Translations under genes and position numbers: made by a program
Shown: piece after piece, positions 12,727 through 34,767 of the stretch
Layout: each line of letters opens with the position of its first letter
Position numbering within the stretch: position 1 is the stretch's first letter
Notes under the pieces: model-generated
What the model was told of the DNA's origin: nothing
The model's database searches: none
The model's input: the letters and a program-made list of their open reading frames with translations, nothing else
Origin: Plicaturopsis crispa FD-325 SS-3
Lineage: Eukaryota > Basidiomycota > Agaricomycetes > Amylocorticiales > Amylocorticiaceae
NCBI GenBank assembly: GCA_000827205.1
Contig: KN832563.1
Coordinates: 110,008-174,007, forward strand
Length of the DNA: 64,000 bases
Direction: 5' to 3'

Positions 12727-12798
12727 AACTATGTGGGCGCGTAGCTGCACGCTGAGCGGGGAAAAGTGCGCGTAGCAAGGCAGGTTCACCCGTCATAG

Positions 12799-12908: not shown

Positions 12909-13149
12909 AACTATGTGGGCGCGTGGCTGCACACTGACTGGAGGAAAATGCCGGTACACCCGCCGTACTACCCGTTACGGCACTTTAGCAAGGAGACCAA
13001 AAAGTTCGCGATGGCTGCTGCAGAAACACTGGAACGACTAAAGCCGATCCTGGTGGTGCCCGGACGCGCGCAGTGGGGGGACAGGCGAGGATGCGGCTAG
13101 AAAAGACGATGGGAAAGCACGTACAGCACGTCCAACTCAATCACCGTAC

Positions 13150-13258
13150 CACCCGCTGCGATAGTTCAAAGGATACTATGAAAAATCAGGATCGCCGCTG
13201 CAGAAGGACTGCAGCGACTACAGCCGACTTTGTTGGTCCCTCGACACGCAACGGGGAG
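13150..13258 (-). repeat. Palindromic core, 109 bp
   Basis: Outer arms CACCCGCTGC and GCAACGGGGAG (one mismatch). The inner arms CGCTGCAG/CTGCAGCG are perfect over 8 bp. Confidence 0.82.
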
Positions 13259-14815: not shown

Positions 14816-14906
14816 CACCACCATGCACTCGATCCCGTCGTCGCGCCTCTCCGGAGAAGCGCGATCATCCTGATCGACTCGGATGCACTTGTGTTGATCA
14901 ACGGTG
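14816..14906. repeat. Palindromic core with variant 12-bp arms
   Basis: Arms CACCGTTGATCA (14816-14827) and TGATCAACGGTG (14895-14906) are perfect reverse complements. Compared with the usual CACCGCTGA/TCAGCGGTG, both arms changed in step (C>T on the left, G>A on the right). The core is 91 bp. The inner palindrome TCTCCGGAGA lies near its centre. Confidence 0.88.
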
Positions 14907-15030
14907 TGCGTTATCGTCTGTGGGATGGCGCGTATCGTCTGCGGGAAGGCGTCATTTCCTCTGTCCCGCGTTGCCCCTCCTTCCCACCTTCGTTGTTTAC
15001 CTTCCCAATCGCCTCCCCGCGCAGCCCACT

Positions 15031-15134
15031 ACCGCCAAACACTACGATGGCCCTCGATCGCGTCGGCGCCGCACCTCTCTGGAGTGGCGTAGCCGTCTTG
15101 ATTGTCTTCGTTTTGTGCTGCCCTGTTTGGCGGT
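15031..15134. repeat. Palindromic core with variant 11-bp arms
   Basis: Arms ACCGCCAAACA (15031-15041) and TGTTTGGCGGT (15124-15134) are perfect reverse complements and differ from the neighbouring cores on both sides together. Core length 104 bp. Confidence 0.88.
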
Positions 15135-15378
15135 GTACGGTCTGTCTGTTGGAGGACACGTCTTGTGTGCAGAGGGACACGTCCTGCGTGAGTAATTCCG
15201 TTCCCTCATACATTCTGCTTTCTCTATCCTCCTCTTCGCCTCCTCCCCTCCTTGAACCTTCCCTCGTTGCCCGAATCCGACGTGTACAGTGAACGTAGCC
15301 GTTCCATCTATCGCACATCCTCCCCTTCCCTCTTGTGCATCTGCGCACCGCCGTCATTCCCCGCACCCTCGAACACAC

Positions 15379-15486
15379 CACCGCTGATCACCGCCGAAGC
15401 AATCGATCGCGCCGTCGTCACGCCTCCCTGGAGGAGCGCGATTGTCCGGCTCGACCGTAACTTTTTGGTGTTTGTCCTCAGCGGTG
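15379..15486. repeat. Palindromic core, 108 bp
   Basis: Arms CACCGCTGA/TCAGCGGTG are perfect over 9 bp. The inner hairpin is CGCCTCC-CTG-GAGGAGCG. Its counterpart in the second higher-order copy is 17788-17895. Confidence 0.87.
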
Positions 15487-15590
15487 TGCGTATCGTCTGC
15501 GGGATAGCGCGTCCCTTCCTCTTTTCCCGTATCACCCCTCTCGTCGTTTTCTTCGTCTTCTGTCCCGACCATTCAGTGCCCTCTCCATCG

Positions 15591-15655
15591 TGCACAAGAC
15601 ATGTTCATTGCGCACAAGACGTTCTCATTGCTGCGCACAAGACGTCCTCATTGCG
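15591..15655 (+). repeat. 22-bp minisatellite GCGCACAAGACGTCCTCATT
   Basis: Three to four imperfect head-to-tail copies of a GCACAAGACGTxCTCATT unit within a satellite spacer. Confidence 0.75.
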
Positions 15656-16023
15656 ATAGACAATGTATGCATAGTGCCCCCTTCTTTTTTACGTCCTTTG
15701 CATCCACGAGCTTCTCCCCGCAGACCCCCAAACACACCACCGCTGTACAGTACAGAAGTCCTCGATTACGTCTCCCGTCTCCCGTGCTGGACGCTCGACC
15801 TGATCGATATACTTCCGCCCCGCACATCGGTGCATGTTTCACGTCTCTGCGCGGTAGCACGTCCTCTTCACGGTCTTTACTCTCCATTGCGTTCTCATTG
15901 CGTTCTCCGTTGCTATTTCGCGCTGTCTCCTTTTTTCCGCGCCCAAATACGGCGTTCCCTTGCACCCGCACGGCGTTCCCTTGCACCTCCTACGAAGCTC
16001 TCCGCACAGTCGAACCAACCCAC

Positions 16024-16132
16024 CACCGCTGAGCCCCGCCGCTGCACTCGATCACTGTGCTACCGGCACGGCTCTCTAGAGTTGCACGGTTATCATGATC
16101 GATGTAATAGGATTGGAGGTGGTTCAGCGGGG
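16024..16132. repeat. Palindromic core, 109 bp
   Basis: Left arm CACCGCTGA, right arm TCAGCGGGG (two mismatches at the end). Its close relative 18315-18423 has an intact right arm. Confidence 0.82.
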
Positions 16133-16250
16133 TACGTTTTGGTCTGCGCGAAGCCTACGTTTTGGTCTGGGCGTAGCCGTTAGCTTTTTGTCTGGGCGTA
16201 GCCGCTAGCTTTTGGTCTGCGCGGAGCCTACGTTTGGTCTGCGCGAAGCC
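16132..16250 (+). repeat. Tandem repeat of about 30 bp (GTTTTGGTCTGCGCGAAGCC)
   Basis: About four to five imperfect copies of a unit with TTTTGGTCTGCGCG followed by AAGCC or TAGCC. It starts at the right arm of the core 16024-16132, so the repeat seems to have grown out of that core's edge. Confidence 0.75.
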
Positions 16251-16334
16251 TCGTCGTCGCCCCGTTCGTGATCTCACGCTTGGCGGTGCTCGTCTTGTCC
16301 GCGGTGGGCATCACAGCGCGTCCGCGGTGGGTCT

Positions 16335-16475
16335 CATAGCGCTCGTGTCGCAATTTCTGTGCCCGTCTCGCAAGTGCTGTGTTCGTCTCGTAATCGCTGT
16401 GCCCGTTTCGCAATCACAGCGCTCGTTTCGTAATCGCCGTGCCCGTCTCGCAATCGCTGTGCCCGTCTCGCCACC
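16335..16475 (+). repeat. 18-19-bp minisatellite (GTCTCGCAATCGCTGTGCC)
   Basis: About seven imperfect copies of a CGTYTCGYAATCGCTGTGCC-like unit, in a satellite spacer. Confidence 0.78.
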
Positions 16476-16583
16476 TCCTCTCGTCTTATCCGTGCTGCTC
16501 GTTGCCCCACCCTATTATCCCCCACTCCGCAAGTTGTGTGTCCCCGCCCTCTTCCCTCCCTACTCACAACCCCAAGCACAACC

Positions 16584-16672
16584 CTCCGTACACGCACAAC
16601 CCTCCATACACACACAAAGTACCACCTCCATACACACACAAAGTACTACCTCCATACACACACAAAGAACCA
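16584..16672 (+). repeat. 23-bp minisatellite (CCATACACACACAAAGTACTACCT)
   Basis: Three close copies and one or two decayed copies of a CCATACACACACAAAG unit. A related CACAACCCTCCAT stretch is found in the second higher-order copy near 18580. Confidence 0.8.
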
Positions 16673-17050
16673 TCGCAGCCTGCGACAGCCACATCCTCCG
16701 GCACGGTGCCCCTCTCACGCCCTTGCTGCAGACGGCCGTGATCGACGATATGGCTCGGCAGGTTGCGTGCCACTGAGTTGTGGGTGCGTGCTCAGTTGTT
16801 GGGGTATGTTGCGGTTAGTATAAGTGCTTTTTCCGTCCCCGTTCCTGCTTCCGGGTTCACGCTTCACGCTAGGTCCTGTTTCCGTCACGGTAGGTTCTGC
16901 CTACGCCCGATAGATGGCTGTACTTGTATGCGCGGACGGCTACAGTAACTGATTTTTCGCCTTGGTGCCAAGCTTGATGCATGCATTTTACAGATTCAAC
17001 GCGTGCATCGTACATACTTGACGCGCTCATAATCGCACAAAGTCAGCCCG

Positions 17051-17242
17051 CACACACTCCGAATGTCTTCCGCGATATATACCTGGTCGCGAGGAACTCC
17101 GTGTCACTGGTGCTTGTACACCAAATCTCTCGCTGCAGCTAAATTCACAGTCGCAGTACTTATGATACAGGATTCGACATCTCTCTCCTAACTAAGCCAG
17201 GAAGAAGTACCCCAACCAACCCTCCTCGCCACCATCTCCCCC
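17051..17242. other. Short stretch downstream of the broken SDR fragment
   Basis: No palindromic core. It probably derives from the 3' flank of the SDR fragment that reads on the minus strand from 17690 to 17243. Confidence 0.4.
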
Positions 17243-17690
17243 TCACCACGGCAGCGCCGCCCCCCTCCAATCCACAAACGTCCCGCCCCTCTCCTCACGC
17301 GTCGCCTTGTCCACTACGCCCAGTATCCCCGCCACGCTCTCCGCAACGCTGATCGTCGGGCGCTCCTTCGTGCCCGGGACGATGTCGTATGCGTACCGCG
17401 CTGTAAACGCACGTTAGTACACATACTACGCGAAGTAGGGGGTGGGAAGTAGAAGGAGGAAGTATAGAGAGGAATGGCGCGCACCCATGTCGGTGAGCAC
17501 CGAGCCCGGGTGGATCGCGAAGGACACTAGCAGCGGCGCACATCATCCTCATCATCAGCACTCCTTCTCAACACACGAACCTGCACACGGGGGAGAGGAC
17601 GCGCACGCACCGAGGCCCTCACTCTCAAAATGTATCTTCCTCGCCAGCCAATTCTCCGCCGCCTTGCTCGCGCCATACGTGAACTCCCCC
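17243..17690 (-). pseudogene. 3' fragment of a short-chain dehydrogenase gene
   Basis: Reading the minus strand, the fragment starts in the middle of SDR exon 4 (YGASKAAENWLARKIHFE, with the active-site Tyr and Lys), keeps exon 5 (SFAIHPGSVLTDM) and exon 6 (RYAYDIVPGTKERPTISVAE to TFVDWRGAALPW and a stop). Exons 1-3 and the first part of exon 4 are missing, so the NAD(P)-binding half is gone. Introns are still present, so it arose by DNA-level copying and not by retroposition. It is closest to the intact gene at 19674-20756. Upstream, the homology stops at about 17690 where satellite DNA begins; a shadow of the same join (CCCGAATCCGACGTGTACAG) is found at about 15270. Confidence 0.85.
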
Positions 17691-17787
17691 TCGTTTCCCG
17701 AATCCGACGTGTACAGCGGATGTAGCCGTTCCATCTATCGCACATCCACCTCTCTCGTGCCTCTACGCATCCCCGAAAGCGACCAAC

Positions 17788-17895
17788 CACCGCTGAGCGC
17801 CACCCATGTACTCGATCGCGCCGGCTTCGCGCCTCCCTGCAGGAGCGCGATCGTCCGGCTCGACCGTAGCCTTAGGCTTTGGATCATCAGCGGTG
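17788..17895. repeat. Palindromic core, 108 bp
   Basis: Arms CACCGCTGA/TCAGCGGTG are perfect over 9 bp. The inner hairpin CGCGCCTCC-CTGCA-GGAGCGCG and flanking CGATCGCG/CGCGATCG boxes make a nested palindrome. Confidence 0.88.
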
Positions 17896-18168
17896 TGCGT
17901 ATCGTTTGTGGAATGGCGCGTTCTTTCTCTATCCTGAAGCTGCCTCCCGTCCTCGCCCTTTCCGTGAGCAGTATAGCCATTGCTGCTCGCCCTGCTTGAC
18001 CAATTTTCTTTCCATCGCAGACCCCCAAACACACCACCGCTGTGCACTGCAGAGGCACTCGATCGCGTCTCCAGCGCGGCTCTGTGAAGTCGCACGGTCG
18101 ATCTGATCGTGTGGATTTCTGCAAAACCACTCAGCGGTGCACGTTTCACGTCTCTGCGCGGTAGCACG

Positions 18169-18235
18169 GTGTTTACCCGCCACCATTGCACGGTCCTTAC
18201 TCGCCACCATTGCACGGTCCTTACTCGCCACCATG
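18169..18235 (+). repeat. 23-24-bp minisatellite (CACCATTGCACGGTCCTTACTCGC)
   Basis: About three head-to-tail copies within the spacer between two cores; the last copies are nearly identical. Confidence 0.8.
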
Positions 18236-18314
18236 CCTTTTCGCGCCTTCTCTTCTCCGCGAGCTTCTCCCTTGCCCAAACACGCCAGACGTTTTCCCCG
18301 CACCCAAGCCCCAC

Positions 18315-18423
18315 CACCGCTGAGCCCCACAGCCACACTCGATCACTGTGCTACCGGCGCGGCTCTATAGAGTCGCGCGGTTATCATGATCGATGCAACA
18401 TGACTTCAGGTGGTTCAGCGGTG
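18315..18423. repeat. Palindromic core, 109 bp
   Basis: Arms CACCGCTGA/TCAGCGGTG are perfect over 9 bp. Strongly similar to 16024-16132 (CACTCGATCACTGTGCTACC shared). Confidence 0.87.
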
Positions 18424-19100
18424 TACGTTTGGTCTGCGCGGAATCCTTGTCTTAAGTATTCGTTCTCCCCTCGTCTGCTATGTCGTCGCTACAAATGGCG
18501 ATGCTTTTCGGGCACGCAAACCGTCATCGCTGCACGCTCGGTCGCCTCGTCGTCGCGTCTCCGCCCTTATTCTCACCACACACAACCCTCCATCCACAAC
18601 GAACAGCCACCGCTCTGCACGACGGGCACATCCTCCGTCACCTTGCCCCCGCACGCTCTTGCGCTGCAGACGGCCGTGACTGATTACATGTGCTTGCATG
18701 TCGGGCGGTGGGGCGTGTTATGTCTGTGGATAGTATAAGTGTCTTTTTCGTCCCCGTTCCTGTTTCCGGCTTCACGTTTCGCTGTGCTTATGTTCGATGG
18801 AGGACTATCTGCGCACGCACGGACCGCACAGCTGCCCAGGGCCTGTACACCCGGTCGCGCCGTCGCCGCTGCCGGTGACCGTGATCGATGTAGCAAAGTG
18901 ATCAATTTGTCTGCAGCAGCGGGGTGCGCTGTGTTCGCCGTACACATTCAATTGTAGGCTGCGTACTACCGGAGTCGCCTGTGCCAAGGTCGCGCGTCGT
19001 ACGGATTTTGATGCGTGCATCGTCCAGACTCAACACGCGTACTGTACGGACTGAGCGCGCTACATTCTACTATGACACTAATCCCGATCCTACTGGATGT

Positions 19101-19673
19101 ACGTCCATAGTCGGGCTCGTACGTGAGCAAGATTCAACCATTCGTCCCCTCGCCATTCATGTTATGCCAATGCTACTTGCGCTCCTGTCGTACTTACCTC
19201 CCATGGTATCCCCATAAATCGCTCGGAGTCTACCCCGCTTCGCACGGGCTGGGTTGGCGTGCCATGTACGGCACGGAACACCGGGTGCACACTTCACTAT
19301 GAGCCCTCGAAGGCTCGTCGACGGTACGCGGGACTAGTCCTACGCATAGACGCTCGGTCTCCCGTGCTGTCTGAGTTGCCGGGCTCTACTCTCCTTGGCT
19401 TCACTAGCTTCCACACGTCTACACACGTCTAATATTAGCCATCCCGATGCTAACGATTCTTCCACCACTTTATGTGCTAAGCTGCACGACGAAACACCGA
19501 GACTTTCGGTGTATACAACGCATACGTGGTCCGTCGGCAACCACTTCTCTCAGTATCCCTCCGTCTTCCTCTGAAGTCAATTGTTCATTGCAGCGTATAA
19601 GTAAGTATACAGGTGGACCTGAAGCTCATTCCAATACACACAATCTTTAGTGAAAGTGAAGTATTAACAAGCC
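19101..19673. other. Upstream region of the first SDR gene
   Basis: No palindromic core and no coding signal. It should hold the promoter of the SDR gene that starts at 19674; no clear TATA box or regulatory motif was recognised. Confidence 0.4.
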
Positions 19674-20756
19674 ATGACAACCCAACCAACCGTATACCTC
19701 GTCTCCGGCGCCTCCCGCGGCATAGGCACGTCCCCTCCCCCTTCCCTCCCCTCCTCTCTTCCCTCTCCCACATCCCCCAACTAACCTACCCCACCCAGGC
19801 CTCGGCTTCATCCGCGCCCTCGCCACGCGCCCCAACACCATCATATTCGCCGGCGCGCGCACCCCCTCCTCCTCCCCCGACCTCCAAGCGCTCGCAGCCG
19901 CGCACCCCGGGAAGGTGCACATCGTGGAGCTGACGGCGGGGGATGTGGAGGGGAATAGGCTGGCGGCGGAGAGGATTGGGGAGGTGGCGGGGAGGGTGGA
20001 TGTGGTTATTGCTAATGCTGGTGCGTGTTTTTTACTGTAATGGTTCGGTTCGGTGAATCAGAATATTGATATACGGTGGATGGGGTGTGGACGGCTGGAT
20101 GCAGGGATATGCAAATGCTACACCCCGGTGCACGAGACGCCCGCGGAGGAGCTGCGCGAGCACTTTGAGGTGCGTCCTCCTCCCTCTTCCCTCCTTCCTT
20201 CCCTCCTTCCGCTCCTCCTCATGGCCGCACAGGTAAACGTCATAGGCACGATAACCCTCTTCCAAGCCCTCCGCCCCCTCCTCCTCGCCTCCCCACACCC
20301 GAAGTTCGTAGCCATATCAACCGTGGGCGGGAGCATCGAGGCGGGCGCGGCGTTCCCGTTCCCGATCGCGGCGTATGGCGCGAGCAAGGCGGCGGAGAAC
20401 TGGCTTGCGCGGAAGATTCATTTTGAGAATGAGTCCTTCGGTGCGCCTTATTCCCCTCCCGTCCGGATGCGTTGACAGAGATCACGTCGTCCTGCAGTTT
20501 CCTTTGCGATGCACCCGGGCTCGGTGTTGACTGACATGGGTGCGCGCTATTCCCTTCTAAAGTATACTTACTTCCTGACGTGCTGACGCCGTTTGCAGCG
20601 CGGTACGCATACGACATAGTCCCGGGCACGAAGGAGCGCCCGACGATCAGCGTCGCGGAGAGCGTAACGGGGATGCTGGGTGTGGTGGACAACGCGACGC
20701 GCGAGGAGAGGGGCGGGACATTCGTGGATTGGCGGGGGGCGACGCTGCCGTGGTGA
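19674..20756 (+). CDS. Short-chain dehydrogenase/reductase 1 (SDR, NorA-like group)
   Basis: A cytosolic-type SDR of 248 residues that probably reduces or oxidises a carbonyl/alcohol with NAD(P)(H); the substrate is unknown. Exons: 19674-19725, 19799-20020, 20105-20169, 20233-20440, 20498-20539, 20599-20756. The cofactor motif is SGASRGIG (residues 11-18), then NAG (90-92), Ser142 in AISTVGGS, and Tyr161/Lys165 in YGASK; HPG follows near 188. There is no signal peptide or membrane segment. It resembles the fungal norsolorinic-acid-reductase-like/sniffer-like SDR group from memory. Intron 1 starts with GC (ATAG/GCACGT) and not GT. It is the only intact gene within the satellite region, and paralogues lie at 31093-32145 and 45672-46718. 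Exon lengths match those paralogues, which supports the model. Confidence 0.88.
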
Positions 20757-21100
20757 GGGGCTGGGAGGGGTTGGTCTGCGCGGAATTTGTACTTCGATGG
20801 CTTTGCTGTTAGTAAATGCACGATGCGCTCGTTGCGGCAAGAGATGTCGTTATTAAGGTTCTGATTAGTAACCTGGAGATGTCAGACTATGAATCGTCAC
20901 TGCAACACCGTGGAGCCGTCGCTCCTGTATTGGAATGTGATCGTCAGGAGGTGAGCAGTGTCAAGCGCGTAACACCTTAGGCCTTAGGATAGGCGAGGGC
21001 ATTACGGCCAAAGATCGTGAAAAGGACCTTCACCGAGCCAGTGTGTAGTCGTTCAAAAGTGTGCGATCTAGCACAGACACAGCGAGCAGGGAAGTCACTT
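20757..21100. other. Downstream of SDR 1, no gene seen
   Basis: Presumed 3' untranslated and intergenic DNA leading into the next satellite block. No open frame with a recognisable motif. Confidence 0.4.
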
Positions 21101-23700
21101 ACAGATAGCCGCACCCAGTGTTTTGCCCGCTGCGCATCCTACATTTCTGGGAGACCAGATCGAATATTTCGCTGCAGGGATGCTACATCGAGAACATCCG
21201 ATCTTGGCCCCAGAGCTACGCAGCGGGGAAGAACAAGTGGGCGCGGCGGAGAGCGTAGAGAAGTGCAAACACGAGCGGAGAGCAGTGCAAGCACGAGAAC
21301 AGACGCCGGGAGGCATGGCATGGAGTCCTCTAGAAACGACCGCGAGATACATAGGAGATATCGAGCGTGCCCACAGCATCGCTATACCAACGAGAGTAAA
21401 TTCCCGCCTTGACAGGATCAGCATTTAGGATCGTCGACGCGCGATGCTGCATGGGCTGCGACACCGATCCGGGGACCCGTGCACAGCGGGAAGGTGGCTC
21501 GAGTGGTATGCTATCACGACGGCGATGGTACTGTGAGCGCGACACGGTGAACCGCGAGCACAGAAGGGATGGAATTGCGAGTGCGAAAGAGAGGACACGC
21601 TGAGTGCAACAGCCACAGAACGTAGCTGGTAAAACACATAGTGAACTCCGAAGAAGATCTCATACTTCACCGGGTCTTCGTCGTCGCAGGAGACACTCGA
21701 GTCTAAGAAACGACGATGCCCAATCGCTGATCGCTGGCTGGAGTAGAGAGTGAGCATGCTCCGGTCCCTGCGCCCACAGCTCCACCCGCTGCCTTCAACT
21801 TTAACACAATGTGAAAAGACTGGGGTCGCCGCAGCAGAAAGACTGCGCAGAACCCGCGAGTCTTGTGTCGGTAGAGTGCGTGCAGCAGCGGGGAGGACGG
21901 GGCGGGCAACAGCGCACATGGAGTCAAGCCATTGCATTGCAGTGTGCACTGACAAGGAAGAGCAGCAAGAACAAATGGACGGAGGAAGCCATGGCCCCCA
22001 TCACATAGTGACACCGCACACCACACCACTCGCTGGAACACTACAAAGAGGATACCACAGATTGAAGACCGCAAACTGTCTGCAGCAGCGGCGCACCTGA
22101 CCTGGGGAGACTCTATATGCTGCAGCGAGATGGTGTGTTCAGCTGCTAGGTGATGACGGCGGCAACAATGCGAACGAAGGAAAGAAAGCGGGGACATCGC
22201 GATGTAAGATTTGTTGTACCGTTGAGTCGTTTAGACCGAGATCACAGCGACGGAGAGCCCCTGCATTGCGTACACCAATTGTTTTGTCGAGACGGGAAGA
22301 GTGGGAGTGCGAATGCAATGGCGCGGACGGAACGAGACACGCACTACACCACCCGCCACCAACACTCCCAAAGAGGATAGATCGTGGATGGCAGCAATCA
22401 AGAGATCGCGTCGAGTCCCATCAATCGTGGGGGAGTTATTGTACAGCGGGACGGAATGGGAGCACGAACGACGAGGGCAGTGAGCGCAAACAACGAGAGC
22501 GAGCGCGAAGAACGAGGGGAGTTAGCGCAAACAACGAGGACATTAAAGCGTGCGAGACAGACACACAATAGACGCGCCAAAACGAGGAGCCGCGCCGCAC
22601 ACAGCACCACCCGCCGAGAAATGGCCTAACTACCGGTTAATCGCGGAATGCAGTGATAGCTAGGTATCGTGTACAGTGCCTCGATGTTGTGCCGGGTGCG
22701 TCTCAGCGGGGAGGAGTGCGCGCGCACAAACAAAGAGGGCGGTGTGCACAAGCAGGAACGACGAGGGCGATGTGCGTGAGCGCACACGTCAACGAAGAAG
22801 TGTGCGCGGACGCGAGTGACAAAAGGACGCGAGTGACAAAAGGCTACGAGCGCGAACGAGACAGACACACACAAAGTAAACACGCCAAAATGAGGCGTCG
22901 CGCCGCGCCACGCACAGCACCACCCACTGAGGAGTACCCCAAGTATCAGATCGCGGGATGCAGCGATAACCATAACTAGGTATCGTGTACAACGCCTCGA
23001 TGATGTGCTCGGTGCGTCTCAGCGGGGAGGAGTGCGCTAGCGCGAACGACGAGGGCGGCGAGGGACAGGCGGATAGATATAGAACACCGGTATTGAGCAT
23101 GCCGAGTGAGTACTGAGTGCAGCAAACGGCAGGAAAAAAGGGGAACACATCGCAGCGGCGACAGAAACCACCCGCTGCTTTCCAAAATACCGCCGAAAGA
23201 TCGGGGACCGCAACAATCGATGAATGCCGCGTACGATGCCCCGATCGTGGTGTGCCCCGGTTGCAGCGGGATGTATAGCTTGAGTTTTAACGATGAGCCC
23301 GTGTGCGGTGAGGGATAGGTGCATGGAATATGACGGTGAGCATGCAAAGTGATTGCTGGATACTAGCGGAGGAAAGAGACATAGAAGGCGAACACACCGC
23401 GGCAGCAGCACTACCCACTGTAGCATGGGCATGACTCCCAGATCGGAGACTGCAGGGATCGAAAGAACATCGCGTGTCGTGCAGAGCCCCGATCGTGTTT
23501 TGCGTGTGCAGCAGCGGGATGAATGGCGTGGACGTGAACGACGATGGTCCGAACGCAAAAGGGGGAGACCACCGGAATGTGTGCTACGTACAGCACCACC
23601 CGCTGCTTGGGAGAGATTGAGCGTCGCAGCAATCGTGGGGCAAAGAGGGCGGGGAGGAGTGGCACAGATGGAGGCGATCGAGGATTAGCGGGCGTCAATG
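21101..23700 (-). repeat. Near-palindromic satellite block 4 (reverse)
   Basis: Reverse-oriented units: CACCACCCGCTG-like left boxes near 21785, 22022, 22350, 22608, 22919, 23163, 23409 and 23592, and CAGCGGGGAGG-like right boxes near 21220, 21483, 21887, 22443, 22703, 23018, 23262 and 23509. Spacing is about 180-330 bp. Two neighbouring units (about 22650-22770 and 22963-23060) share CTAGGTATCGTGTACA..GCCTCGATG and TCTCAGCGGGGAGGAGTGCG with an offset of about 313 bp. No gene seen. Confidence 0.75.
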
Positions 23701-24764
23701 AGAGAACAAACGAGAATGCGCACAATGACGGCTCCGAAAGACGGTACCAGCTCATCGATGAACATCACAGCGGAAAGAAAGGGCGGTGGATGCGAGACAT
23801 CGATGACGATGGACGGCGACGACAAAGGCGACAGCGAGCTCGACGCGGCTTGGCCGGATCGGAACTCGGATCCACCATCGATCTTGTCGTTTGCCTTTTG
23901 CTCGTCAATTGCTCGTCGTCTCCTTTGTGCCATCGCTGCGACCTCCCCGCTGTGCCCTACACTAGTCGTCCACATCGCCCGTCATCGTTCCCACTCTTTG
24001 ACTGCGATGCCTGCGATCTGTGCTCTCAGCAGCCTCCAGCGTGTAGCTCTCCTGGCGACCGTCCTGCGCACATGCCATCCCCGCTGTGCACGACGCCCAC
24101 AGTATTGACCGCGTTCTTCTTGCTGCTCCGTTGCCTATTGCTGTCATGATCATCGCGATTGCGTGCTCCGTCCTGATTATTGGCGCAGTGGTGAGCCACC
24201 TTTGCAGCATGTACGTTCAGCCACGGTTTCCCTGCATCCTCCCTTGACATCGTCCCGTCGCCCGCTCCCTTCTCATCGCCTACTCGACCGCACACAGGTC
24301 TCCCCGCTGCGCAGAGTGCTTGCACACTAGATCGCGTACGATCGGTACAGCGTCCCTGCATTGACAGCTCGGTCTTACCTAATGTATCGCACATCTACCA
24401 GCGGGACGGCTTCTGCATACGGCGAATAGTGTTCCCACTTCTCGTTTGTCCATCATGTTCACGGCCCCGCGCGCTCACGGCCGCTGCTGTTTCTACTCAC
24501 AGAACTCCCCGCTGCACGCGCTCTTCCGGGCCCAATATCGCACGTCATCCGCGCAGAGTCTGTCTCTGCGTTGGCTGCTGGGATTTTCAGGTCGCTGAAA
24601 GCGGTGTAACGGGAAGCGCTCTGCTGTGTGCTGCAACCGGTCTTATCATGCTATGTGCTCTACCCTCGTCCATAGCTTCTACCGTCGTCCATGGCTGCTA
24701 CCCATGCTTCTTATCCCCTTCTACTGCTAATTGCCTAACACATTTTGCGGTCATCGAACGCACT

Positions 24765-24868
24765 CCCCGCTGCGCGCTTTTGGGGACAAGATCAGGTGCG
24801 CTCGGCGCAGCGCCTCTGCGTCGACGGCCCTCATCTTTTGCAGTTGTCCCACAACTTCGCAGCGGGCG
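24765..24868 (+). repeat. Palindromic core, 104 bp
   Basis: Arms CCCGCTGCG (24766-24774) and CGCAGCGGG (24858-24866) are perfect over 9 bp. The middle holds CGCAGCGCCTCTGCGTCGAC. The next core lies 214 bp downstream and is almost the same sequence. Confidence 0.87.
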
Positions 24869-24978
24869 GTGGTGTTGGTGCCGCGACCGTTCGCCGACTA
24901 CTGATCATCCTGTCAACCACCTTGTTCTTCGCACTCAACCCAATCCTCGCACGTCTCCTCGCTCGCACCCAACACACT

Positions 24979-25082
24979 CCCCGCTGCGCGCTTTTGGGGA
25001 CAAGATCAGGTGGGCTCGGCGCAGCGCCTCTGCGTCGACTGCCCTCATCTTTTGCAATTCTCCCACAAATTCGCAGCGGGCG
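24979..25082 (+). repeat. Palindromic core, 104 bp
   Basis: Arms CCCGCTGCG (24980-24988) and CGCAGCGGG (25072-25080), perfect. It differs from 24765-24868 at only a few positions. Confidence 0.87.
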
Positions 25083-26110
25083 GTGGTGTGGGTGCTGCGA
25101 CCGCTCGTCCGCTCCCGATTGTTGTTGCCGTGCGCACCCCATGCATGTATTTATTCTTGTCAATCGGCTCCCCCTCGTACACTCAACGTCCCCGCTGCGC
25201 GTGCTTCCCCACTTGATCGGGCGCAGCTGGCGCGGTCTGTCCCAAATGCTGGCCCCCGATCTCATAAAATCCGGAAAAAGGTGCAGCGGAGGCGTCGTGT
25301 GCTCTGCATGCAGCGATTGTGCCGCACTGCCTCTCATTGGTCTGTCTTTTCCAGTCGGTGCGTTCCTCCCTATCAATCTGTGCGCCTCTCCCTAGCCAGT
25401 CGGCGCCGCCGCGTGCACAAACCTCCCCGCTGCGCATGCTTGCCGACTTGATCGGGTGCACTTGGCGTGGTCTATCCCAAACGCTGGCCCCCGATCTTAT
25501 GAAATCGGGAAAAATGGTGCAGCGGAGGTGTTGTGTGCTATGTATGCTGCGCTGCCTCTCCTTGTCCGCCGGCGCATCTCTCCTGCCCAGTCAGCGTGTA
25601 CACTCAACCTCCCCGCTGCATACACCTGTGACCTGCCACCAGATTGTGGAATCGGTGCAGCGCCTCTGCGTCGATGGCTCCGATCTGGTGGATATGGCGC
25701 GAGGGTGTAGCGGGTGGTGCTGTGCGTTTGGTGCAAATACATATATTCACCGTATTTGGGTACAATACATCACACTCTTGTCGACACTGTATACCCGGCA
25801 TTGTGTGCACAGGCGCATTTCTACGAAACGGCGAATCACCGCGCGCTTTCCTCCTGATCTTGGTAGGTGCACATTACTCGTTATTGATGTTGTATGCTCG
25901 CTCACTGTTCGGCCTTGCAGGACTTTATGCGAGGAAAGTTAGCGACTGCATCGATGTCGATATACCGTGATGTATAAATATAAACCAAACAATACATGAA
26001 CGTTCAGGTGTGTAGCAGAGTGTCCGAGCAAAATGTCCTTACTCTACCGTACGACATAGAGAAATAATGGGCGGCGATGCGTGGCGCTAGCAGTCACGAA
26101 ACACCACCTC

Positions 26111-26993: not shown

Positions 26994-27369
26994 GGCTGGA
27001 GAGCGGTGCGAGAGGTGCTACTAAGGGAGCGCAAGTCGATGAAAATCAGGGGTAGGAAAGACTCCGAGGAGGTTAACCGGTAATCGCGAGCGGTTGTTTG
27101 GTCATGTTTGCCAACACCATCTAATTCGACTGAACGCCCAAATTTTCAATCGATATCGCGGACTTTGGCTTTGCCTTCATCGTCGCCATCGATTTAGCTG
27201 TGTATCTTGCTCAGGCGATATCAGTCCTCACAATGGGCGATAAAGTTTGACGGAAATCACGTCACGGCGAAGCACGGAGCAGGCGAGACTATTCAATGCT
27301 GAGGGCCACTCGAAAGAAATACATTGATGTCGTATCGTACACCACTAGTAACAATTTGGTTTCTTTACA
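26994..27369. other. Intergenic, no gene seen
   Basis: Short intergenic stretch between the divergent-looking ends of two minus-strand genes; no motif recognised. Confidence 0.4.
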
Positions 27370-29265
27370 CTACGGGGATTGTAGAAATACCGCACTCCTA
27401 ACCAAGGCATTGGCAACGTGAATCAATTTCAGCAGCACCTGCTCATCGGCTTCGTCCTGCGGGATTATGATCCTCATCGCCATCCACTTCCCGGCGCTTT
27501 CCTCCGCACACCGCATCCTGTGTTGCCACTCCCATTCATCTTCGCTCTCGCGAGCCGGGGGGCGGTAGTCGCTTACACGCTTCACGCGAACCGCCGTCGG
27601 AACGACCGTGTAGTCTATCTCCAGATAAAGCGTGCTTATGAGGATCCCGGCATCGATGGCGCCCTTCATAACATTGGGTATGTGGCGGTAGATAATATGG
27701 CTGGCGATGTACTCGATGAAGCTCACATCGAGCTCGTCGCGCTGCATCCGAAAGCCCTCTGTTTAAGTGCAGTGTCAGACCATTGTCCCCCACAGACAGA
27801 AGAAGGGGAATGTCGGGGGCGCACCGATCAGACTCTGCTGCACCTCTTTGCAGATGTGCTTGTGCAACGGCCAATCTAGTCGCTGGCATTCCTTGGAGCA
27901 GTAGAGCGGGCCTAGACATCCCGAGCACCGCTTCATGGTGTCGTCGTCGTATTTCACGCACTGTTAAGTATGTCAGAGCTTGGGCACCACATAAAAGTTT
28001 GCGCGGCGTACCTCTGAGCGACTACAGGCCTGAAGTGCACTGCGCCCGCCCTCCTTATCCCATGCATCCAGCAGCGAGAGCCGCTCTTCAGCGAGCTCCT
28101 GAAATCCTTTCCACGCATCCCACAAAAGCCCAGCAGACGCTGCGGTCGTGAGACCCAGCCTCTTGACTTGGCGGATAGGCTTGCGTACGGCGCGCAAGAC
28201 CGAGCGAAAGACGAGATACTTGGGCAGCAACTCACACAAGAGCTTGCGGATGAACTCGACGAGGTCGGGGTGTTCTCGCAGGCTGAGCCATGCGCCGGAC
28301 TTCAGCATCGCAGTAAGTAGGCCAGAATCAAAGGCCTGCATGGCCCAAGCGGAGCCGTTGGCGGAGAAAAAGCCATTGAGAATGTTGTAGTAACATGCCA
28401 ATATTGCCTCCACTGATATTGCATCCACGGGGCGCGCATTGCACCAGTACAGCACTTTTATCACTTCGGGGATGACGCCGTGGTTGACGAACGCAAGATG
28501 GAGCGGCCGGCATGATATCCAGGAGAGTGAGCGGATGAGCAAAACGTTTACATCGACCTCCTCTACCGCCGCCGCCGCCATTGCCGCTCGCAGACGTGTC
28601 AGGGCAGTGGTCGCAACGAGTGTCGCATCGCCCTCGGCAGCATCCAGGACGTAGTGAATCAGATCAGGCGCGGGATCATCATCATCCAGTAGATGTGTGT
28701 CGTCTTCTGTTTCGAGTTGATTGCCAAAGTGAACAAGGATCTCCAATGCGAACGCACACGCCGCAGTCTGGCTCGCAAGCTCGGGAGGTCTCGCCTGAAG
28801 CCACTGCTTTGCGAGGATCACCAACAGACCGGGCGTCCTTGTAAGGGTAGCGCGCAATGCACTGGACTTGCCCAAGGCCGCCAGGGTAAATGCGATAGCA
28901 AAGACAGCCCCCTCACGGCCCTCGTCGCCGTAGGCACCCTCCACAATGCATTTATCGTACTCGAATTGCATCCACTTCCAAATGTGTGGCCAGCCGTCGG
29001 GCGCAAGGAGGCGCGCGACAAGCGCGGGGGAGGCGCTAAAGTGCGCCGGGCCGCATACGATGAGGACAGATAGTGCAGCGTTTGTGAGTTTGACCTGGCG
29101 CCGGTCAGCTGGAGACGGCCGCACAGACGTCGGTATCCTGGCGGGGCTGAGATAAGGGAAAATGGGAGCGATGGTGGCGGGCGTCACTTCCCCAGGAGGC
29201 GTTCTATCGATGCGTTGCGCGAGCTGGCCTAGGGACTTTATTCGGGTGTGGTAGTTCGTAGCCAT
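27370..29265 (-). CDS. MYND-type zinc-finger protein
   Basis: Minus strand, 592 residues, exons 29265-28012, 27960-27825, 27758-27370. The first exon (418 residues) is Leu/Ala-rich and helical, like an armadillo-type repeat scaffold. The zinc finger spans the first intron: CSRSE in exon 1 and CVKYDDDTMKRCSGC, LYCSKEC, HKHIC in exon 2. These supply the seven Cys and one His of a MYND finger. MYND fingers usually bind proline-rich partner proteins. The last exon has an acidic-hydrophobic domain of unknown role. No SET domain was seen, so this is not a SMYD methyltransferase. Large families of MYND proteins like this are typical of Agaricomycetes. Expression and partner are unknown. Confidence 0.88.
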
Positions 29266-31092
29266 ACTCGATGTGCAAGGAGTCTGGAGTCCCTGATTTC
29301 GTAGCCCTGAAGAGGGCCACGCAAGTGCGGGGAGATCGTGAGCATATATACTGCGAAGGACATTGATATTGCCAGGGTCCGGAGCAGCCAGGTGACACGT
29401 TGGACCACTTAAGGTTTTACGGTGGCGTTCTTCGAAACAGCGAGCGCTCGCGGAAGATGATGTCGAGACCCGTATCTATTGTTCCTGGGTTGATAGTCAT
29501 TACATATCTTCACCCGGTAGGAATAACGGATGCGTAGGAGAGCCGGTGGGCGTCTAGACGAACGCAGTGGTGGTGGAGACGGCAGCCATGCGATGTGGGA
29601 TGTGTCGTCGGGCGAAACGATGAAAAATTCGTTAGCCTGCGTGCGGAGCCGATATGGGGTGTTCCAAGTGGGTAGTGGGCACTCATCTCTCGTAGAGGCT
29701 TTATCTGGAGGAGTAGAGTCCACGACAATGGATACATCACTCTATATAGCGGATGCCATGCCGTACAGTGTGAAGCGATGGGCCGGCCCTTGCTTTCCCG
29801 AAATGGCTGAGCTATCGAAATTCAACGTCCTGCGGAAGCACAGTCTCTCAGGAACTCGAAGGTTCGGAAGGTTAGGGCACATACCGCGCAGATTCATTTG
29901 AGAACGTCCTCGAAGCACGGTATTATAGAGGGCGGGTGCACACACAGGGCCCGTAAAAGATTGGACGGTATGAATCAGAGCTCTCAGGTCGACGCGCATA
30001 CACGGAGGAACAGGATAAATGACAAACGAAAGCAGTGCCCGAAGGACCGTTCACGCCCGATGTCCGCCTCGATAGTCGACAATTGCTGCGTATGCCCGTT
30101 CTGAATCAATGAAACGAGGCCCAAGGTTGGGTGGAAGGCGACCAGGTTTCCATGTTGACGAGAGTCAGCACCATGTATGCGACATATGTCATATTTGTGC
30201 CCTGCGCTGAGTGACTTCGCACCTGCCACATCACGAGAAAATTAGTACATGGTACGAGGATGCGCGATCGTCGTGCAGCTTGGAGTCCAGGCGCAGAGGT
30301 AGCGATGAGCGAGGTGATATACACAACACTCAGAAAGCTACTGCACAGTCTGCACCGGCTTAAGGTCATCGACAATGTGTATTGTCGGCCAGGGACGGGC
30401 GATGGCCACCAAAGGATTTGTACGCATCGTGTGGGGCGGTAGATGCTCGACGATGTGCGGGTAGAAGTCTAATACTCCCGTGGCAATGAAAAGACGAGTC
30501 GGAGAGTTCAGGTGGGGTACACCTGGGGTACACGCTCGTGCCAAAGCCAAGGCCATGTAGCGACTTCGTTGTACGCAGAGTAGTCACACAGGAAGTAAAG
30601 ATATGAGCAAGTATCGCTGGCCAGAGGATGGCGGCCTGGTCGAGGATGAGTTTGGGCGTGACAAGGACAGTGTGATCTGAGCACCGACGACGAGAATGTA
30701 TTTTCCCCTTAAGCTTGACGTTCAGGTAAAGGTGCGCAGAGTCTGATGTTCATGTACGTAGACGGGTTGTAGCGGCGTCGTGCTGGACGTTGAGACTTGA
30801 GGTTGTCGTTCAGAGACATGGTAGTTCCGGTAGCCGACCCGTACGCTCGACATCGACGACAACGACGACGACGACTGTTTACTGTAGTTGTCCGCGTCCC
30901 ATGTAAGATCCTCACTGCAATACACTCCTTGCAGTCACCTCATCTACGGTTGTATTACAACAGGAAACGGGGCTCGATATTCGATTTGTGGCGTCAGGTT
31001 TGTTGAACTTGTGCCATCGCTCGCGAGGTCTACATGCAGTGTTCCAAGGAACAACTGTGTCCTGTGTCCTGTGTCCTGTGTCCTTCCTCCCC
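29266..31092. other. Long intergenic region, no gene recognised
   Basis: About 1.8 kb between the MYND gene and SDR 2. Short frames exist on the minus strand (for example near 29409-29740 and 30106-30587) but none has a recognisable motif or a credible splice pattern. It could hide a decayed gene. The ends should hold the MYND promoter and the SDR 2 3' end. Confidence 0.4.
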
Positions 31093-32145
31093 TCACCAAG
31101 GCAGCTTCGCGCCCAGATAATCGACGAACGTTCCGCCCGTCTCCTCGCGCGTCGCCTTGTCTACCACGTCCAGTATACCCGTCACGCTCTCCTCGACGCT
31201 GATCGTCGACCACTGGTCCGCGCCGGGCGCATTATCGAAGGCATATTGCGCTATGAACGACCGGAAGCCTTATCAGCACAGCTCGGAAGGAAATAGACAT
31301 CAACAATGCGCCTACCCATGTCAGTCCTCACCCCGCCCGGGTGCAGCGCGAACGAAACTGGCGGCCGAAAAAGGTCAGCACGACGACCGAACCAAGGGAG
31401 GGGGGGAGGGGGCTTACTGAGATGTTCGTTCTCGGAGTGGATCTTGCGCGAGAGCCAGTTCTCGGCGGCCTTGGACGCGCCGTAGGCGAGCATGCCGAAG
31501 GGGAAGGTGGCACCCGTCGCGATGCTACCGCCGATGGTCGACACGGCGACGAATTTCGGGTGCGGGGACGCGCGCAGGAGGGAGTGCACGGCCTGGAAGA
31601 GCACGACCGTGCCGACGACGTTCACCTGCGCCGCGGGTAGTTTAGTCCGTCGCTACCACACACTGGCACCCAGACTGAGACTCACTTCGTAATGGTCGCG
31701 CAGCTCCTGCGCGGGCGTCTCGTGCACCCAGCCGTAGTACTTATTGATCCCTGCATAATCGCGTCAGCTCTCCATCTATTCCTCTACACATACACCTAAG
31801 CCACACGGTACATACCAGTATTCGCAATCACCACGTCCACCCGCCCAGCAATTTCCTTGATCTGCGCCGCCGCCGCCGCGTTATCCTCCACGTCACCCGA
31901 CGTGAGCTTCACGATGTGCACCGTCTTAGGGTGCTGCGCGGCGAGCGCCTGTAGGTCCGCGGCGCCGGACGGGTTGCGCGCGCCGGCGAATACGATTGTG
32001 CCCTCACGCGCGGCGAGGGCGCGCACAATTCCGAGGCCTGTTACGGGAGCGTTGAGTTTGGTCTGGCGGTGGCGTGCAAGAAGATGGACGGACCTATGCC
32101 GCGCGATGCGCCGGAGACGAGGTATACGGTGGATGCTGTCGACAT
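31093..32145 (-). CDS. Short-chain dehydrogenase/reductase 2 (SDR, NorA-like group)
   Basis: Minus strand, 248 residues, exons 32145-32094, 32037-31816, 31750-31686, 31625-31418, 31357-31316, 31250-31093. Exon lengths are the same as in SDR 1 (52, 222, 65, 208, 42, 158 nt). It has SGASRGIG for cofactor binding, VSTIGGS with the catalytic Ser, and YGASK with Tyr and Lys; the second glycine-rich turn reads IANTG where the paralogues have IANAG. It ends TFVDYLGAKLPW. Intron 1 has an ordinary GT donor (ATAG/GTCCGT), unlike its two paralogues. The substrate is unknown. It is transcribed in the opposite direction to the other two copies. Confidence 0.88.
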
Positions 32146-33289
32146 TGTAGGTTATTGCTTCACTTTCTCTCAAGATAGTGTGTTGTAGAAAGAGCTATAA
32201 GCTCACGTATATATACGCTGGAATAATAATTTTGACTTTAAGCATCGACTTCCACGAGTACCGCGAAATGCGCTGCCGACTGACTGCGTATGCATGCATA
32301 TACCGAGAGTCCCGGTGTTTCGTCGCGAAGTTTGGCTTGGTAAGGGGGTGCACTGCGAGAAAAAAGAGTAAGTCGAGTCAGTAGTGCTAATAATATTAGA
32401 CGCGTGTAAACTTCTCGCCTGCGACTGAATCAAAGCCCAGCGGCTTGGCAGACAGCAATGCACGAGAGACCGAGCGTCCATCCGTCTAGCTAGTCCCTTC
32501 GTAGCATAGCGCGGAACAGACGCGCGTTCGAGAGCTCATGTTGAAAGGCGTACTCCATGTTCGATGCCGTATACGCGCGTCAAGCCGAGTCCGCGGGTTT
32601 GCACACTAAACGAGAGTAGTAAGTAAGAGTATGCACCGACTCGGAGCTGGAGGTCTGACTCACCTCCTGCTGAATTCTCGCCAACTAGAGTGCGTGTGAG
32701 GTGAGAAGCTCAAAGACTCCAGGGGGCAAACAACTTATGGCCCTATGGGGATACCAAGGGCTGTAAGCACGGAAAGAGTAGCAAGTGGCAATAGAAGTGG
32801 CCTCGCACACCATACCACCAGTATAGTCGGAGATCGCAGCAAAAAATCATGCTTTGAATCGAGTATGTGCATATCGTTGGCACACATACGGTAAGAAAAA
32901 TAGGAGAGGTGTTCCGGGAATGACAGCACTGAGTTACCTATGAGTGACCCTCACACAACACGATCTAAATTATCGGCGCACATACATGATCCCGATCGTC
33001 TGCGCAGCGGACTATGCAAATACCGCCACTAGAAGACAGCGAGTCTCAGCGCGTAGAACGTACCGTCCCGTTTTGACGAGGCACTTGCCATTCATCAGAA
33101 ATATCGAGCGTACGACGGTGAGATCAATGAGAAAGTCCATTCCGGAATCCGATCCGGGTGCTCGACGTCGATGGCCACAACGAGCTCGATCGACGCGACT
33201 CTGGGCCACTTTGCGTCTCAGCCTTAAGTGCAGTGCTCCCCTCCCGTCCCGTCCTCGCCTCCGTTCTCATTCGTCCGTGTGCTCGCATA
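32146..33289. other. Intergenic, no gene recognised
   Basis: About 1.1 kb upstream of SDR 2, leading into an isolated satellite block. No coding motif seen. Confidence 0.4.
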
Positions 33290-34400
33290 TCCACGCATCA
33301 CCGCCGTGCATGTTGTCGACCCTCGTTCCGAGTCGTCCAACTGATGCAGTATATCTGCCACGATGGCCCCGATTCCTCGTACTTGAGGGCTTAACCGCCC
33401 AAAGGGTGCGGTGACGGACGCCAGTCTCAGGACCGTATCCTCATCAGGCGCGGTCGACGGAAGACTCTTGCGAAAAGCAGTACTTTCGTGCGTTTTGTGG
33501 CGTCCTCGTGCGTATGTACTATGCCGTTCTGTCTTCCTTCTCGTTCACTGTTGATTCGCCCCACTCTAGCTCATGCACGTAGGGCGGCTCTCCCGCCGCA
33601 CGACCAACGACGCGTCCCCGCTGCTCGTGGGAAGACATCGACACGCGATCGAGTCCATTTCGTGCAGTGCATATGCCACGATTGCCCCGATCTGCTGCGC
33701 TCGAAGATCCACGTAACAGTGAGCACTGCGCCAGATGCGGTGGCCAACGCCCTTCGTCCGCGGACGGTCCTTTTTGTGCGCAACGTGCATCTCGTCTCCT
33801 TCGTACGCATGCGCATCTCACCTGTCCTTCTCTCGTGTTCCTTTCTCGTTCAGCTTCAGGCCATCATTCCCCCGCTCAGACACCTCCCTGATGCGTGACT
33901 GGGTTCTCTCCGTGCGGTATCCCTGTGGCGACGCGTCACCTCTATCTTACCCATTCTTTGCATCGGTATGCATATCTCACTATCTCACTATCTTGCTCTC
34001 CCTGCTGTCCCCGTCACGTCCAAGTTCTCCCCGCTGAGCGTGCACACGGCATCAACACACGACTGGCGTCATCGCTGCAGAATTCCTGCAGTGAGGCCTT
34101 AAATCTTGTGGAGTCGGTCACTACTTCAGTGGGCGGGGCTGTACGTGCCACGGACCCGCGGTCGCACGGCCTCTACTTGCATGTTCGCCCTGCTTCTGCT
34201 TGCACTCCAACATATCACGTTCTCTACTAGTATTTCACGTCCTCTGCTCGCACCTCGCGGTCTTTTCTTGCACCCACGATCCGCCCGCTGCGCGTGCTTG
34301 GGCTCACCGCACGATCGGGCTTAGTTGCTGCAAGATTTCTGCAGCGATGCCTCCGATCTCTTGAGGCTTGTCATCAAGCAGCGGGCGGGGCCGTAGGTGC
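33290..34400 (+). repeat. Isolated palindromic satellite block 6
   Basis: Four forward units about 7.5 kb away from the main block: roughly 33298-33410, 33606-33740, 34029-34146 and 34281-34389. They show the same boxes (CCCGCTG, GATCGAG or GATCGGGC, CCCCGATCT, CAGCGGGCGG). No gene seen. Confidence 0.75.
34281..34389 (+). repeat. Cleanest palindromic core, 109 bp with 11-bp arms
   Basis: Arms CCGCCCGCTGC (34281-34291) and GCAGCGGGCGG (34378-34388) are perfect reverse complements. Inner boxes GATCGGGC and CCGATC follow the general plan. No obvious target-site duplication flanks it. Confidence 0.88.
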
Positions 34401-34767
34401 CTCATAGCCGCGTTGCACGTTCACGCGGTTTACGCTTGTAATCTAGCATCCTCGCGTGTCAAATACCGATCTTTGCACCTCCCTCCAGCAAGCTAGTATA
34501 TGAAGCATCACCTTGTATTCCCAACGTTAACATCGATATGCCACACATATTGTCGCCAGTATGTGAAGTACTGAAATGCGCGCTGGAGCAGGTCATATGT
34601 GTACTCGGACGCAAACAAGCTAAGGATGTACATTGCATTGTCCACCCTCTGTACTGGCAGCCGCTTGTGAGTGGGTAGGAACATACTAAAGTACCAACTG
34701 CATGATCAACTTGTAGCTGCGATTTATCATTGGGACTCCCTTCATGCAACATCGCTTACTTGAGCTA

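Follow-up and report, generated by a model that had tools for sequence, protein, structure and literature searches.

A 64,000-nucleotide stretch of the genome of the basidiomycete Plicaturopsis crispa FD-325 SS-3 (contig KN832563.1, positions 110,008 to 174,007 of the forward strand), hereafter the window, carries a family of 45-52 related hairpins of 79-131 nt each, found with a covariance model between 8.7 and 36.9 kb of window coordinates. The arms of these hairpin copies have changed in step, and pairing has been kept. The family extends beyond the few cores with self-complementary ends that a preliminary description of this DNA had reported. The arms cited there exist, with small slips of position: the 5' arm of the first core lies at 14806 rather than 14816, and the CCCGCTGCG arms lie at 24766 and 24980 rather than 24765 and 24979.

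Delineation of the hairpin family

The covariance model was built from 6 cores and then from 13, and was run unfiltered. From its 106 matches, 51 sense rows were picked by hand, and the locus at 15026 was added for its arms, giving the 52 loci analyzed here; antisense mirror matches, short or isolated matches (such as 23594 on the minus strand, 20279 and 8310 on the plus strand), and all loci outside the arrays except 36803 were left out. The best model score (R2) within 37-64 kb was 12.8 bits. Clearly above this value lie 45 of the picked rows; the locus at 9510 reaches 12.9 bits, and those at 18823, 17784, 15375, 22347, and 21398 fall below it. Of the 42 C[AC]CGCTG sites on the sense strand of the arrays, picked blind to pairing, 34 belong to the 52-locus set. 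The region around 15740, judged by eye, is a homologue with a decayed 3' arm and stands outside the set; BLAST pairs 15719-16156 with 18016-18447.

An inverted-repeat search also bore out the existence of such arms. Pairs of exact inverted arms, 9 bp or longer and separated by a loop of 60-110 nt, number 24 in the whole window, where 30 block-wise dinucleotide shuffles average 9.9 (sd 3.4); for 8-36 kb the count is 17, and the shuffles average 4.7 and never exceed 10. Twelve of these 17 pairs fall inside listed hairpins; among the five that do not, three (12715, 23510, and 25072) link arms of neighbouring copies, as judged by eye.

Concerted change of the arms

The joint change of the arms was measured by an alignment-free swap, in which the 3' halves were permuted among the copies and the mean pairing energies compared. 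Own halves paired at -45.25 kcal/mol and permuted halves at -37.70 kcal/mol, a cost of about 7.5 kcal/mol (z -12.8, 52 copies); when the swap was restricted to copies of one array the mean was -39.75 kcal/mol (z -9.0). To exclude an effect of the covariance model on the choice of loci, the swap was applied to the 42 sites picked by the 5' arm motif alone, which gave z -8.0 overall, -6.9 within arrays, and -8.2 on the antisense strand; 48 random positions in the same arrays, used as a control, gave z +1.4. The earlier statement that arms fit their own core is sustained by these values. Its second half, that they do not fit those of the neighbours, went too far: many arms also fit neighbouring arms because most copies share CCGCTG/CAGCGG. 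The own 3' half ranked first of 52 for only 9 copies and within the top five for 24, and it fitted worse than average in 8 of the 52.

Covariation was further assessed by a tree-aware, R-scape-like simulation, in which per-site rates were not kept, so that the null is lenient as regards the Watson-Crick fraction. In a model-fitted alignment of 51 rows, 5 of 27 structural pairs covaried (E<0.05) and none of the non-structural pairs did; double-changed cells numbered 126, where the null averaged 74 and reached 113 at most. In a model-fitted alignment of 13 rows, both partners had changed in 12 pairs; shuffles gave 6.1, with 0 of 500 reaching the observed count, and slid controls gave 1-4. The structure-blind alignment (A7) comprised the 24 of 52 copies judged to have the group A inner stem; there, 0 of 26 pairs covaried and 25 double-changed cells were counted against a null mean of 28, with a Watson-Crick fraction of 0.71 against a null of 0.43. 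The proposal that pairing is kept while the sequence moves, either through selection of the fold or through correction of one arm against the other, thus finds backing in the arm swap and in the model-fitted pairs and none in the structure-blind rows, and the covariation check suggested along with it was divided in the same manner. Because the two kinds of alignment differ, it is the alignment-free swap that carries weight. A pairwise count of co-change over 2617 ordered pairs (double Watson-Crick changes 2458 against a null of 1693, other doubles 2417 against 2138) was dropped as evidence, since gappy alignments inflate identity and the pairs overlap.

Architecture and stability of the hairpins

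The hairpin unit measures about 110 nt and is for the most part unbranched: the outer stem P1 (CCCGCTGC/GCAGCGGG) encloses a variable middle, then comes a second stem, P2 (AGATCGGG/CCCGATCT), and the tip is formed by stem P3, which closes on a small loop. Group B hairpins, located at 14.8-18.4 kb, mostly have the ends ACCGCTGA/TCAGCGGT and a CTC-loop-GAG apex. The fold z of the 52 hairpins averaged -3.34, with 39 of them below -2, compared with -0.16 for linkers (2 of 42 below -2) and -0.15 for 49 windows of 37-64 kb (5 below -2). The minimum free energy was at most -29.9 kcal/mol in all 52 hairpins, within the fold criterion for fungal precursors of microRNA-like RNAs (milRNAs), which is at most -20 kcal/mol and below shuffles. 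RNAalifold, applied to a plain MAFFT alignment of 22 cores, recovered the outer stem alone, in our judgement because the inner parts are misaligned there.

The arms had been described as perfectly self-complementary, which is accurate for part of the family. Over the eight outer pairs, 15 of the 52 copies are Watson-Crick throughout and 14 more combine Watson-Crick with G.T pairs; the other 23 are mismatched, 16 with one real mismatch and 7 with two or more. The cores at 14806 and 15031 have perfect arms of 11-12 bp that differ from those of their neighbours at several close pairs. Just outside P1, the pair k=4 is non-Watson-Crick in 39 of 52 copies (G.T in 2 of them), whereas Watson-Crick pairs form at k=5 in 47 copies and, together with G.T, at k=3 in 32. 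An extra outer stem beyond P1, P0, seemed likely on inspection by eye but exceeded flank-swapped controls only weakly (mean 12.6 against 10.7 pairs, p 0.019).

Organization and origin of the arrays

Most hairpins lie in six oriented arrays with pyrimidine-rich linkers. The strand switches only 5 times along the 52 copies, against a mean of 25 and a minimum of 11 in 20000 random permutations, and linkers between hairpins of the same orientation contain, on the sense strand, 35% C and 31% T (66% pyrimidine). The arrays and hairpins are listed below with strand, covariance-model score (R2, in bits), and fold z against shuffles; training rows are those used to build the model.

Array I, 8692-11193, plus strand, 10 hairpins, pyrimidine-rich linkers on the plus strand
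8692-8808, +, hairpin; 15.2 bits; z -4.3
9021-9133, +, hairpin; 28.3 bits; z -4.0
9277-9387, +, hairpin; 32.8 bits; z -1.3
9510-9618, +, weak hairpin; 12.9 bits; z -1.7
9692-9802, +, hairpin homologue that folds poorly; 17.1 bits; z 0.0
9901-10017, +, hairpin with co-changed arms CCCGCTAA/TTAGCGGG; 23.2 bits; z -3.6
10152-10246, +, hairpin with co-changed arms CCCATTG/CAATGGG; 16.5 bits; z -3.6
10497-10592, +, hairpin; 26.4 bits; z -2.8
10810-10924, +, hairpin; 25.0 bits; z -6.6
11072-11193, +, hairpin; 29.9 bits; z -2.1
Array II, 11660-14129, minus strand, 12 hairpins
11660-11738, -, short hairpin; 21.6 bits; z -2.8
11772-11885, -, hairpin (training row); 83.7 bits; z -3.6
11966-12077, -, hairpin; 40.3 bits; z -4.2
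12141-12271, -, hairpin (training row); 84.1 bits; z -6.5
12356-12464, -, hairpin (training row); 87.6 bits; z -5.7
12614-12728, -, hairpin (training row); 101.4 bits; z -6.3
12796-12910, -, hairpin (training row); 104.9 bits; z -5.7
12966-13082, -, hairpin homologue that folds poorly; 48.4 bits; z +0.6
13147-13260, -, hairpin (training row); 96.2 bits; z -7.1
13464-13576, -, hairpin; 30.2 bits; z -3.0
13709-13803, -, short hairpin; 17.5 bits; z -3.0
14022-14129, -, hairpin; 35.9 bits; z -1.3
Array III, 14488-18925, plus strand, 9 hairpins listed, mostly group B (ACCGCTGA...TCAGCGGT)
14488-14587, +, hairpin with arms CCCGTTGC/GTAACGGG; 22.6 bits; z -2.5
14802-14910, +, hairpin with arms CACCGTTGATCA/TGATCAACGGTG; 17.2 bits; z -5.0
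15026-15139, +, hairpin with arms ACCGCCAAACA/TGTTTGGCGGT, missed by R2 and added for its arms; z -3.3
15375-15490, +, group B hairpin, weak model score; 9.8 bits; z -2.7
16020-16136, +, group B hairpin; 17.0 bits; z -4.2
17784-17899, +, group B hairpin, weak model score; 10.2 bits; z -3.4
18031-18143, +, group B hairpin; 17.9 bits; z -3.2
18311-18427, +, group B hairpin; 24.2 bits; z -6.6
18823-18925, +, doubtful hairpin; 12.1 bits, below the best match of 37-64 kb; z -0.5
Array IV, 21121-23523, minus strand, 9 hairpins
21121-21232, -, hairpin (training row); 74.7 bits; z -5.9
21398-21495, -, doubtful hairpin; 7.5 bits; z -1.3
21780-21897, -, hairpin (training row); 80.5 bits; z -3.6
22024-22134, -, hairpin; 24.0 bits; z -4.1
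22347-22455, -, hairpin, weak model score; 9.8 bits; z -2.4
22605-22715, -, hairpin; 20.9 bits; z -1.6
22918-23031, -, hairpin; 22.7 bits; z -2.0
23166-23275, -, hairpin; 41.0 bits; z -3.5
23409-23523, -, hairpin; 22.5 bits; z -1.6
Array V, 23941-25719, plus strand, 8 hairpins
23941-24048, +, hairpin; 19.9 bits; z -3.7
24298-24410, +, hairpin; 34.1 bits; z -1.8
24503-24618, +, hairpin; 34.4 bits; z -2.6
24761-24871, +, hairpin (training row); 103.6 bits; z -5.6
24975-25085, +, hairpin (training row); 101.8 bits; z -5.5
25186-25295, +, hairpin; 27.8 bits; z -2.7
25421-25531, +, hairpin; 42.9 bits; z -3.7
25607-25719, +, hairpin (training row); 79.1 bits; z -5.0
Array VI, 33612-34390, plus strand, 3 hairpins
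33612-33728, +, hairpin homologue that folds poorly; 20.5 bits; z +0.6
34025-34138, +, hairpin (training row); 70.4 bits; z -4.4
34279-34390, +, hairpin (training row); 34264-34405 folded as RNA, -70.9 kcal/mol; z -4.4
Outside the arrays
36803-36910, -, degenerate isolated homologue without a good outer stem; 23.1 bits; z +0.5

The term satellite, used in the preliminary description, is inapt for these oriented blocks, and homogeneous satellite DNA was rejected: gaps within arrays are irregular (42 of 45 measure 33-296 nt), BLAST alignments between copies have 60.5-79% identity among the 40 of 44 that were listed, and the strand switches five times. Apart from one 182-bp pair, Tandem Repeats Finder reported nothing but short local arrays. 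Coding repeats were rejected as well, since the spacings of two close pairs, 182 and 214 nt, are not multiples of three, and no Pfam domain lies within the hairpins; the six frames of 8.3-16.4 and 21.1-25.8 kb contained no Pfam domain, and six-frame scans of 8.3-33.6 kb matched gene pieces outside the hairpins only.

Homology among the copies extends through hairpin and linker together for 200-600 nt in 16 of the 17 paralogous BLAST alignments of at least 200 nt, the remaining one covering a linker only. The arrays therefore grew by segmental duplication and not by separate insertions, and a miniature inverted-repeat transposable element (MITE) or foldback element inserting independently of its flanks was rejected on this ground. 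It could still be supposed that an old inverted-repeat transposon of the MITE or foldback kind was duplicated in tandem and that its copies, now functionless, are decaying, with co-change as a mere reflection of family history. The repeat nature, the inverted ends, and the presence of some decayed copies are in keeping with this idea, but the joint homology of hairpin and linker points to segmental duplication, and a swap cost that persists within arrays is not expected from decay; such an origin is regarded as very unlikely.

Several other features occur in and between the arrays. Within array III, the segment at 17603-17686 on the minus strand encodes the peptide EFTYGASKAAENWLARKIHFESEGLGAC, which we take to be short-chain-dehydrogenase-like; it has no Pfam match, overlaps a segment duplicated between 15227-15545 and 17655-17951, and looks like a captured gene fragment. 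The long linker 3' of the hairpin at 16020 contains short tandem arrays of 18-40 bp units (16133-16672), and the sequence after them, at 16649-16865, has a second copy at 18587-18780. The gaps 14130-14487 and 23524-23940, which separate divergently oriented arrays, are candidate bidirectional promoters.

Forces maintaining the pairing

The reading favoured here, tentatively and as somewhat short of probable, is that of a tandemly duplicated and diverged hairpin family kept by selection on its fold, in which the pyrimidine-rich strand is probably read into non-coding RNA hairpins. Each block would be read as one long non-coding transcript from that strand, whose hairpins could serve as repeated structural domains or, alternatively, be excised as hairpin RNAs by an enzyme such as RNase III/Dicer. 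Recognition, and with it conservation, would center on the P1 ends and the GATCG motif, and the remaining hairpin sequence would drift freely while pairing holds. Template-switch correction perhaps helps to keep the arms paired, alongside fold selection. That the element is selected is argued from its few indels, the higher identity of P1, the retained k=4 mismatch, and the constant orientation. In the 17 BLAST alignments, gaps per aligned base amount to 0.171 in linkers, 0.086 in hairpin cores, and 0.024 in P1, and identity is 0.861 in P1 against 0.719 in linkers.

Selection on a sense-strand RNA should spare G.T but not A.C mismatches, for which the linkers give a neutral expectation of about 1.3 to 1 (0.149 against 0.115 differences per site). 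In P1, the 52 copies contain 29 G.T and 12 A.C; departures consist solely of G.T in 14 copies and solely of A.C in 3 (one-sided p 0.025 against the linker-derived ratio). The ratio was 31:9 in the 13 model-fitted rows and 87:38 in the 51. Among 1x1 mismatches of folds made without G.U, linkers had G.T:A.C ratios of 1:6 and, with the antisense strand folded, 2:5. The firmest helices of a strand-symmetric test, repeated with shorter flanks, had 11 G.T against 3-4 A.C, which is not significant.

Besides the structure-blind alignment discussed above, a number of results weigh against RNA-level selection on the fold. The G.T excess of P1 sits at two G-C positions (16:1), while the C-G positions k=5, 6, 7, and 9 give 4:7, and counting once per array and position reduces it to 17:11. 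The structure-blind alignment had 61 G.T against 35 A.C (p 0.098), and the 1x1 mismatches of hairpins folded without G.U were 17 G.T against 16 A.C, or 24:20 with the antisense strand folded. A symmetric rod alignment gave 203:192 overall and 99:76 for isolated mismatches, and its repeat with shorter flanks 81-89 G.T against 59-69 A.C, about the ratio expected from linkers. The fit of own arms was equal on the sense and antisense strands (p 0.49). Sixty of the 126 double-changed Watson-Crick cells were of the transition type, reachable through G.U, which is near the transition share of linkers (469 of 951), and 66 were of the transversion type. Identity in hairpin cores outside P1 (0.737) hardly exceeds that of linkers, and the homologues at 12966, 33612, 36803, and 9692 fold poorly. 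Since P1 and the model-fitted helices favour G.T but the strand-symmetric tests are neutral, action as RNA is a lean and not a finding. Array IV (21121-23523, minus strand), taken alone and post hoc, had a strong excess of G.T over A.C in the symmetric count (23:5) and may be the best candidate among the arrays for action as RNA.

The strand symmetry of the mismatch ratio and of own-arm fit would suit a mainly mutational process with weak selection on the fold: where a stretch of one arm has changed, template switching in DNA synthesis would rewrite the partner arm to match. Template switching makes and keeps hairpins in rRNA genes, according to one study, which gives 61.0% of instantaneous compensatory changes there as of the G.U-reachable type (PMC8794818). 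In the present hairpins, the 66 transversion pairs, which have no G.U path, resemble a neutral spectrum, and the long perfect arms of the cores at 14806 and 15031, different from their neighbours at several close pairs, are also what such copying could leave. P1, however, keeps its sequence and not pairing alone, with high identity and few indels, and the k=4 mismatch beside it persists although k=5 and k=3 mostly pair, which counts against arm correction because copying of a stretch should erase it; the flat spectrum of double changes could also come from deep divergence or misaligned cells. Arm correction as the main cause is considered unlikely.

Selection might instead act on a DNA form, whether extruded cruciforms, hairpins of single-stranded DNA, or a protein-binding motif (GCAGCGGG) present as inverted pairs about 100 bp apart, with a role, for example, in chromatin or replication. 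Whole hairpins have no strand preference in pairing energy or in mismatch type, and the two ends of P1 carry one conserved motif in inverted copies, both of which would agree with such a form. A pair of binding sites alone, however, leaves the co-change of P2 and P3 in the model-fitted rows unexplained, the arrangement in orientation blocks and the strand bias of the linkers hint at a directional process, and P1 leans to G.T. This alternative is likewise considered unlikely.

It is conceivable, though the chance appears small, that this is a new eukaryotic gene cluster, made up of dozens of diverged hairpins arrayed directionally, whose arms are complementary largely by DNA-level correction, with a neutral spectrum and no overall G.U bias, and in which selection holds only the end motif, the length, and the orientation.

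Genes and other repeats of the window

The window is eukaryotic, as seen from an open reading frame at 43335-44408, whose best relatives of solved structure are peroxisomal thiolases, two minus-strand features, namely an aspartyl protease (about 34999-35688) and a MYND finger detected by Pfam scan (about 27850-27960), and pieces of short-chain dehydrogenase, under the Pfam cut-off, at about 31718-32038 (minus strand) and 20230-20430 (plus strand). ARAGORN, run in its bacterial code setting, found no tRNA. Local tandem repeats with 20-32 bp units resembling CCTACCGCACTACCGCGCTG occur at 2514-2713. A 21-bp tandem repeat, TCGCTGGACTCGCTGCCGTCA, at 62598-62666 has a period that is a multiple of three and is possibly coding.

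Relation to known systems and implications

Rfam covariance models had no match in the 64 kb at gathering score, none up to E=1 in 8300-37000, and none up to E=5 in 14700-19000. Relatives were sought in viral and prokaryote contigs with three patterns: one had no match, and the other two returned 27 and 56 stretches whose best R2 scores, 14.6 and 20.9 bits, were attributed to chance. Among the papers listed by a targeted literature search, judged by titles and the openings of abstracts and with few subscription papers or preprints among them, none describes the hairpin element.

The nearest functional analogy is offered by the milRNAs of Coprinopsis cinerea, a class defined by Dicer-dependent small RNAs from a hairpin arm, whose precursors, in the part of the report drawn on here, are likewise imperfect, stable hairpins of similar size (precursors of 51-150 bp were searched for), some putative milRNAs lying close together on one contig (PMC6145500). 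The P. crispa family comprises about fifty homologous hairpins in oriented arrays, an arrangement not described in that part of the report, and is known from sequence alone. In the rRNA hairpins made by template switching, both arms also change compensatorily, some stems more than once (PMC8794818); there, the RNA is known and the ancestral history was reconstructed, whereas the present hairpins are read from paralogues alone. The hairpin-RNA (hpRNA) loci of Drosophila, described as genomic hairpin transcripts that produce endo-siRNAs, illustrate one conceivable role, although in a different kingdom (PMC10317233). Seventeen conserved structural RNAs of fungi, with which the present hairpins may be compared, have covariation-supported structures; that screen concerned Ascomycota only, and the words tandem and repeat are absent from its main text (PMC8216456).

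The family is visible from one genome because its roughly fifty paralogues give the comparative signal that is usually drawn from many species. If the hairpins are RNA, they would constitute a multi-copy structured RNA family without an Rfam match. If, on the other hand, their arms are corrected by template switching, this would be a case of covariation in the absence of RNA selection, with consequences for the interpretation of covariation tests; a cluster shaped by DNA-level correction would offer a natural setting in which to ask whether covariation always implies selection on RNA.

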